DNA of 40,583 nt, taken from the IMG/VR virus record IMGVR_UViG_3300004463_000109, positions 1 to 40,583 of that record; one strand, given 5' to 3'. Source of the DNA: a virus. Shown in pieces: positions 8,685 through 8,804 of this stretch (position 1 is its first letter; each line of letters opens with the position of its first letter). A program made the position numbers and the translations under genes. The notes below the pieces were generated by a model. The model made no database searches and was not told the DNA's origin. It worked only from the letters and a program-made list of their open reading frames with translations.

Positions 8685-8804
8685 TAGGCTCGTTCATACG
8701 TTGCTCTAGCCAACTGAGCTACTCCCTGAATGGTCAGGGAGGCAGGACTCGAACCTGCGACCTACGGCTTTCAATGCGGTGATTTGGTTTGCTGTTTGAG
8801 CCTA
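8685..8804 (-). ncRNA. Y-RNA-like element 3: permuted tRNA with internal CCA
   Basis: Stem TAGGCTC (8798-8804) pairs with GAGCCTA (8685-8691). AAACAGCAAA leads to an anticodon-like arm ACCGC-ATTGAAA-GCCGT (8764-8780; one C-C mismatch; formal anticodon UGA). Variable loop AGGTC follows, then T arm GCAGG-TTCGAGT-CCTGC (8742-8758) and acceptor strand CTCCCTG plus A, CCA and TT. The 5' acceptor strand CAGGGAG (8722-8728) comes next, then D arm GCTC-AGTTGGCTA-GAGC. All tertiary signature bases look normal. As in element 4 the fold is opened between D and anticodon arms. Unlike element 4 it keeps discriminator A and CCA in the acceptor loop, so RNase P-type processing could free a tRNA-like end. 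Confidence 0.8.

Follow-up and report, generated by a model that had tools for sequence, protein, structure and literature searches.

A predicted phage Y RNA with a nearly whole, circularly permuted tRNA and CCA in its acceptor loop, beside a Ro60-like gene

A 120-nt element on the minus strand of a viral genome holds the parts of a tRNA in rearranged order, which raises the question of whether it is a tRNA gene in disguise or an RNA of another kind. The element, E3, lies in the 40,583-nt window analysed here, which covers positions 1 to 40,583 of IMG/VR record IMGVR_UViG_3300004463_000109. An earlier note, made from the letters of the DNA, had described E3 as a permuted tRNA with a common stem inserted into it, from which a working tRNA might be made by processing at the CCA and rejoining by the phage RNA ligase.

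The top of E3 is a nearly whole tRNA with its halves in swapped order (Table 1). The permuted order set out in the earlier note, running from the T arm through the acceptor 3′ strand, A-CCA-TT and the acceptor 5′ strand to the D arm, is exact in coordinates and pairing. The acceptor and T stems are perfect when their pairs are counted, as had been claimed, and the fold is indeed opened between tRNA positions 26 and 27, where the common stem sits. The anticodon-like arm is also present before the T arm, but the copy in E3 is imperfect, with only four of its five pairs formed; its loop has U33, A37 and A38, with UGA as the triplet. An eighth acceptor pair is possible between A73 and the preceding U, and the dinucleotide TA separates the acceptor 5′ strand from the D arm. 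The minimum free energy of E3 has a z-score of -2.81. With a grammar that scores the T arm, acceptor hairpin, D arm and CAGC closing stem together, E3 reaches 29.0. When the whole window was dinucleotide-shuffled 100 times and scanned likewise, a single element reached 22.5 or more, the top score being 22.7, and this comparison rules out a chance fold. Alignment to the Rfam YrlA model (RF02553) gives 45.9 bits (E = 8.5e-9), which does not reach the gathering score of 69, and we therefore file E3 as YrlA-type in the wide sense and not as a curated member of RF02553.

Table 1. Features of E3, of the predicted Y RNA unit and of other genes in the window
Feature	Position	Strand	Details
E3, whole element	8804-8685	minus	120 nt; predicted YrlA-type Y RNA with circularly permuted tRNA-like domain
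E3 closing stem	8804-8798 and 8691-8685	minus	TAGGCTC and GAGCCTA; 7 bp, no mismatch
E3 motif CAGCAA	starts at 8794	minus	
E3 anticodon-like arm	8780-8764	minus	ACCGC-ATTGAAA-GCCGT; 4/5 pairs, one C.C mismatch
E3 variable region	8763-8759	minus	AGGTC
E3 T arm	8758-8742	minus	GCAGG-TTCGAGT-CCTGC; 5/5 pairs
E3 acceptor hairpin	8741-8722	minus	7 bp, closed by A-CCA-TT
E3 acceptor 3′ strand	8741-8735	minus	CTCCCTG
E3 A73	8734	minus	
E3 CCA	8733-8731	minus	
E3 TT	8730-8729	minus	
E3 acceptor 5′ strand	8728-8722	minus	CAGGGAG; 7/7 pairs with 3′ strand
E3 D arm	8719-8703	minus	GCTC-AGTTGGCTA-GAGC; 4/4 pairs; GG in loop
Promoter	8997-8969	minus	TTGACA-17-TATAAT; 12/12, sigma-70 type, just ahead of first Y RNA
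Short Y RNA, no tRNA-like domain	8963-8913	minus	closing stem and CAGCAA
Short Y RNA, no tRNA-like domain	8889-8827	minus	closing stem and CAGCAA; weak fold, z 0.23
E2, second permuted tRNA-like Y RNA	8548-8435	minus	UUCG acceptor loop
E2 anticodon arm	8523-8507	minus	TTCCA-CTGTTAA-TGGAG; triplet GUU; 5/5 pairs
E1, reduced Y RNA	8191-8116	minus	T arm, UUCG-capped acceptor hairpin, no D arm
Y RNA with other inner module	8097-7997	minus	closing stem and CAGCAA; module common to L002
Terminator-like hairpin and T run	7987-7947	minus	after last Y RNA; by eye
Ro60-like protein gene	9001-10485	minus	DUF2828 and DUF7788; Ro60 fold by prediction
Short TrpRS-like protein	12969-13667	minus	
TET/JBP-type oxygenase	18169-19011	minus	
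CCA-adding-type tRNA nucleotidyltransferase	19639-20583	minus	
Polynucleotide kinase-phosphatase	24267-25202	minus	
RNA ligase	25209-26480	minus	
Two glycosyltransferase-like genes	29016-30290, 30768-31700	minus	
tmRNA	37886-37523	minus	ARAGORN

E3 is one of six minus-strand RNAs that share a closing stem followed by CAGCAA and that are packed into a 1.1-kb stretch between the ORFs 7410-7901(-) and 9001-10485(-). Apart from a plus-strand ORF whose start lies at 8860, the ORF list for this stretch has nothing of at least 60 codons. Two of the six are fully permuted and tRNA-like, one is reduced, and three have no visible tRNA-like domain. The nearest relative, L002, has a 12/12 promoter before its Y RNAs at the place corresponding to that in the window. 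Because a promoter scan of the window found no more sites than shuffles did (4 promoter-like sites versus 4.8), it is the perfect match and the position of the promoter that carry its weight. The terminator-like hairpin is absent from the output of our scan, which had a loop limit of 8. To judge from this layout, the six Y RNAs look like a dedicated transcription unit beside the Ro60-like gene.

The L002 RNA whose start most resembles that of E3 has no tRNA-like domain. A module that is not tRNA-like (GGTGAT.TGGCTATCCCC, TGAATCGTACATTC) is well kept between the window (7997-8097) and L002 (about 6012-6113). A gap of about 245 nt in the unit (8190-8435(-)) holds a long-range stem enclosing some 190 nt; the fold of the region between the Y RNAs at 8190-8442 does not surpass that of shuffles (z -0.62).

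The Y RNA unit lies directly downstream of the ORF 9001-10485(-), for which Pfam gives only DUF2828 and DUF7788 (E 0.01) and which matches PHROG 850, an RNA-binding protein. The Pfam TROVE model does not match this protein, and we therefore call it Ro60-like by fold. A phmmer search of the PDB returned no Ro60 match, and a profile search of the PDB gave TROVE rows only weakly (E 1.2-1.3), so that the fold search decided the identity. The AlphaFold2 model, computed from an alignment of 29 proteins from the window and IMG/VR, has a pLDDT of 86.7 and is predicted to have the Ro60 fold, a helical domain followed by a vWA domain. VIA-align places it on the Ro autoantigen 1YVR with Z 22.1 over 401 residues (model range 10-474); the first ten rows are all Ro60 structures, and the best non-Ro row has Z 10.4. 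The top two Foldseek matches are Ro60 of the Thermus phage phiLo and D. radiodurans Rsr. Relatives of the protein occur in 675 of 50,697 phage records; the Ro protein of L002 is 76% identical to it in the best segment, the related phage proteins L018 and L102 weakly touch vWA_Ro60, and mycobacteriophage homologues carry the annotation Ro-like RNA binding protein. A second 12/12 TTGACA-17-TATAAT promoter lies upstream of the Ro60-like gene (10578-10550(-)).

It is these surroundings, namely the six RNAs with stem and CAGCAA, the promoter and the Ro60-like gene, that lead us to read E3 as a Y RNA, and we regard this identity by itself as almost certain. The common stem, which the earlier note had taken for an insert, turns out to be a handle of the Y RNA type next to a gene with a predicted Ro60 fold, and it is thus likely to be functional and not an insert destined for removal. 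YrlA (RF02553; Salmonella, Deinococcus and mycobacteria) resembles E3 in being linked to Ro60, in having a closing stem, in the position of its gene beside a Ro60 relative, and in the permuted arrangement of its T arm, acceptor hairpin and D arm. The available text on bacterial YrlA describes a domain that resembles the D, T and acceptor arms and that tethers Ro60 (Rsr) to PNPase (PMC8394870). Whereas that account is of a three-armed domain, the phage elements carry an anticodon arm besides. E3 further differs from YrlA in having this arm and a variable region in tRNA register, in the NCCA of its acceptor loop, in its score below the Rfam gathering value and in being one of six Y RNAs in a single unit.

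We surveyed viral contigs with a pattern made up of CAGCAA, a T-loop motif and the D-arm motif GGTAGRGC; these three elements are demanded by the pattern and hence cannot be counted as findings. At least 120 stretches matched, and the frequencies given here hold for the sample listed. The acceptor strands pair in permuted fashion, at no fewer than 6 of 7 positions, in 103 of the 120 matches listed; in chimeras whose left and right halves had been exchanged between loci, the count averaged 11.9 and never exceeded 19. The 103 permuted elements among the matches listed fall into 76 clusters. The other 17 of the 120 listed fail to parse as permuted with a 7-nt acceptor, and several of them have acceptors of 5-6 bp or the look of tandem tRNAs. 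E3 thus belongs to a large phage class of Y RNAs, many of which sit inside phage tRNA arrays. Among the matches listed, a Ro-like gene is found at 43 of the 103 element loci, many of which are short, and at 9 of the 18 with 4 kb on both sides, so that many elements have a partner that is far off or outside the piece of contig, or none at all. When 12 loci holding such RNAs were run at the Rfam gathering cut-offs, no YrlA appeared among the 150 of 152 matches listed. The same pattern applied to bacterial contigs (genome_contigs) gave 61 stretches and 32 parsed matches.

The CCA of E3 is not a lone accident, to judge from its register in relatives and from triplet controls. In the unselected set, CCA stands at loop offset 1, its place in a tRNA, in 6 of 69 clusters among the matches listed, and at the other offsets in 0/76, 0/47, 0/37, 0/18, 0/11 and 0/1 clusters. 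A CCA-specific scan returned 54 stretches, of which 42 are permuted and 12, not being permuted, were left out; the control triplets ACC and CAC gave 3 (all permuted) and 0, against 42 for CCA. A Ro-like gene accompanies 17 of the 42 permuted CCA loci versus none of the 12 tandem-tRNA loci found with this pattern. The NCCA that the earlier note saw in the acceptor loop is therefore present in E3 and non-random at exactly this place in its relatives. It also holds its register while the spacer varies (CCCATAAAT and CCCAAATAT), and TTCAT and TCCAT loops alternate between related elements. Most relatives have an acceptor capped without CCA, often by short loops such as UUCG, GUAA and GAAA; these many tight caps indicate that CCA is not needed for the class. 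None of the bacterial matches (61 stretches, 32 parsed) has CCA at loop offset 1. The longer loops of the CCA forms were considered as a sign of processing and dropped, as the two patterns allow different loop lengths.

The anticodon arm was assessed in 96 clusters among the matches listed, comprising the elements of the generic and CCA scans that have a closing stem. There is room for such an arm, defined as a spacing of 22 nt or more from CAGCAA to the T stem, in 76 of these 96. With the register set by a 5-nt variable region, a canonical loop (U33, R37, A38) lies in the exact tRNA register in 45 of the 76 clusters, as against 0 to 5 in nine other registers and a mean of 4.2 (maximum 11) in shuffles. 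The stems of these 45 clusters among the matches listed, which were not selected for pairing, form 3.36 of 5 pairs; swapping their 3′ strands 1,000 times gave 2.09 pairs (sd 0.135, maximum 2.51). The anticodon loops of the relatives are thus non-random and their stems covary. Twenty-five different triplets occur in the relatives among the matches listed. In the bacterial sample the stems have 2.25 pairs versus 1.82 after swapping, with n = 8 loops only.

We think it reasonably probable that E3 is a YrlA-type phage Y RNA in which Ro60 bears a tRNA look-alike that acts as a decoy or adaptor; because this explanation includes a mechanism, our confidence in the whole is lower than in the identity as a Y RNA. 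The putative handle for Ro60 would be CAGCAA together with the closing stem of 7 bp, and the remainder, a near-complete permuted tRNA comprising D, T and anticodon arms, a variable region and an NCCA-bearing acceptor, would imitate tRNA. Carried by Ro60, the look-alike would most likely bind enzymes that recognize tRNA, serving either as a putative decoy for tRNA-attacking enzymes of the host or as an adaptor for those that the phage employs. That E3 is transcribed and bound by Ro60, that it mimics tRNA, and which targets the mimic has are points that we infer. Counting against this explanation are the score below the Rfam gathering value, the many element loci at which no Ro-like gene is seen, the three scanned relatives whose Ro-like gene has no convincing RNA beside it, the mismatch in the E3 anticodon stem and the L002 RNA that starts most like E3 but is not tRNA-like. 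Decoying enzymes that cut tRNA would be the most attractive use of the putative mimic. For Salmonella, the tRNA-like domain of YrlA is suggested to be a competitive inhibitor of an anticodon nuclease, and YrlA itself reportedly escapes cleavage by the tRNA nuclease, so that there it would be at most an inhibitor and not a cleaved bait (PMC7790460). Phages are also known or proposed to counter tRNA-cutting enzymes with tRNAs (PMC10264068, PMC11555353).

The disguised working tRNA gene of the earlier note was not supported. In that account a real, decoding tRNA would be made from E3: the acceptor would be released by RNase P and trimming, the stem would be removed, and the phage ligase would join 26 to 27. 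Every tRNA part is present, and the phage does encode the expected RNA ligase, along with a polynucleotide kinase and a CCA-adding-type enzyme; permuted tRNA genes with encoded CCA are described for Thermofilum pendens (PMC3978253). ARAGORN called no ordinary tRNA in the window, only the tmRNA, and none in the 96 unrotated relatives, so E3 is not an ordinary tRNA gene. Given rotated sequences, ARAGORN labels E3 as tRNA-Ser(UGA) and E2 as tRNA-Asn(GUU). Of the 52 poorer elements that lie outside the four-armed set, however, 40 are called as well when rotated; the program thus does not discriminate on rotated sequences, and we rejected its calls as evidence. When element bodies with masked anticodons were aligned with 1,391 real tRNAs from the fetched loci, the best-matching tRNA had the same anticodon in only 3 of 47 elements (E2 and E3 included), compared with a mean of 2.3 under label permutation; among these 47 we found no link between anticodon and tRNA body. 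Ser and Leu tRNAs need a long variable arm, yet 9 of 45 relatives among the matches listed combine a Ser or Leu triplet with a variable region of 5 nt, as does E3 (Ser). Together with the conserved Ro60-type stem and the mostly CCA-less relatives, these mismatches make a decoding tRNA from E3 very improbable. Another possibility, which we consider quite unlikely, is that E3 would be nicked and left unjoined: RNase P would cut before CAGGGAG and the 3′ side would be trimmed to CCA, giving a two-piece tRNA-like RNA with a free CCA end that could be charged or bound. The pieces would be held together by the acceptor stem and the Ro stem, as in two-piece tmRNA, which provides the precedent (PMC3978253, PMC3985003), and the enrichment of CCA at exactly 74-76 in the sample listed fits this product. 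Mild support comes from base 1, a G in 15 of the 18 CCA-bearing loops of 5-9 nt versus 19 of the 38 that lack CCA (p 0.02, uncorrected), and from the accompanying tRNA genes, most of which encode CCA at 17 of 18 CCA-loop loci versus 37 of 52 others (p 0.053); both tests were small and unplanned, and the p values are weak. CCA is, however, missing from most relatives, and E3 itself has C1-G72 and a loop of 4-6 nt only. Ligation at 26/27 is required neither by this product nor by the mimic.

Two other accounts leave E3 uncut. As the main rival to the mimic we rank a tether like that of the D. radiodurans Ro60-PNPase particle, in which the tRNA-like domain would recruit an exoribonuclease and Ro60 would feed it structured RNA. 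A role for the Y RNA in the Rsr-PNPase machine has been described (PMC8394870), and such a tether has been proposed for the Listeria phage CKA15 (PMC12282133). A tether alone leaves the retained anticodon loops and the CCA without explanation and does not account for six different Y RNAs in one unit, and we judge it rather unlikely. It is possible, though we doubt it, that E3 is an ordinary Y RNA whose CCA and anticodon loop are functionless left-overs of descent from tandem tRNA genes. This would agree with the many relatives within phage tRNA arrays, with the occurrence of CCA-loop forms mostly where tRNA genes encode CCA, and with the swapping of TTCAT and TCCAT loops between related elements. 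Yet the bodies have diverged from any isoacceptor while U33, R37, A38 and stem pairing persist, which looks like upkeep, and CCA stays in register despite a changing spacer. The loss of identity with loop, stem and register kept is what would suit the look-alike that we favour, an RNA that resembles tRNA to an enzyme without the need to decode.

A bolder combination, to which we give little credence, is that the Ro60 Y RNA panel would consist of complete permuted tRNAs with interchangeable anticodons, of which a CCA subset including E3 would be opened by RNase P and held in two pieces on Ro60. If so, the two-piece, CCA-ended RNA could be charged or could occupy EF-Tu or the ribosome; alternatively it could divert anticodon nucleases, with the kinase, ligase and CCA-adding enzyme of the phage repairing it.

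In the literature searched we found nothing that describes an element of the E3 type, the papers that define YrlA lying outside that comparison. Permuted tRNA genes of red and green algae and Thermofilum likewise place the 3′ half before the 5′ half with an intervening acceptor loop, which in T. pendens encodes CCA as in E3 (PMC3978253), but E3 differs in being opened at 26/27 by a Ro60-type 7-bp stem and in having no isoacceptor identity. Like two-piece tmRNA, whose permuted gene is described in PMC3978253 and PMC3985003, E3 has an acceptor loop that could be cut with no later joining, but ARAGORN made no tmRNA call at E3, and the phage has a separate tmRNA. The phage tRNAs that counter tRNA-cutting defences share with E3 a tRNA shape and varied anticodons; they are genuine tRNAs, which make good the loss of others or withstand cutting (PMC10264068, PMC11555353), whereas E3 would be a mimic that is non-decoding when uncut.

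Retention of a whole tRNA, anticodon loop included, after loss of identity offers a testable answer to why phages carry Ro60 and Y RNAs: the Y RNAs would pass for tRNA with some partner that reads both anticodon loop and CCA end. If true, this would bring Y RNAs into the conflict of phages with defences that cut tRNA. The survey provides a sequence rule for finding such RNAs, none of which was listed as YrlA among the 150 of 152 matches given for 12 of their loci at the Rfam gathering cut-offs.

The RNA-repair and tRNA gene set of this phage sits in a record with no ordinary tRNA gene called. The TET/JBP-type oxygenase and the two glycosyltransferase-like genes suggest modified DNA bases.

Y RNAs have already been reported in mycobacteriophages, as cited in PMC12282133, which also describes for CKA15 non-coding regions that lie no more than 2 kb from the Rsr-like gene and are transcribed at very high levels, and detection of the Rsr-like protein in purified particles. 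Faith1, a cluster L mycobacteriophage that grows in Mycobacterium smegmatis mc2 155, has a permuted element with an anticodon-like loop. RNAs with a stem and CAGC[AG]A adjoin the Ro-like gene in 11 of the 14 relatives that we scanned: Listeria A511 and cka11, FelixO1, Staphylococcus CF1, Campylobacter CPX, phiKSUM, three mycobacteriophages, an Enterococcus phage and L002. KVP40, DLP6 and 7t3, which have a Ro-like gene, showed no convincing RNA of this kind beside it. In Listeria A511 (L240 3701-3966) and cka11 (L241 3663-3927), three RNAs with stem and CAGCAA lie just upstream of the Ro-like gene and are candidates for the Y RNAs proposed for CKA15. Salmonella phage FelixO1 has RNAs with stem and CAGCAA, not annotated as such, among the tRNA genes after its Ro-like gene (L242 5719, 5886 and 6427-6551 (+)), one of them permuted and tRNA-like with an AGGT acceptor loop. 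The tRNA array of Enterococcus phage EfsSzw-1 (L009 about 4393-4290 (-)) contains a permuted tRNA-like element with the closing stem GGACAGT/ACTGTCC and no CAGCAA, perhaps a Ro-independent form.
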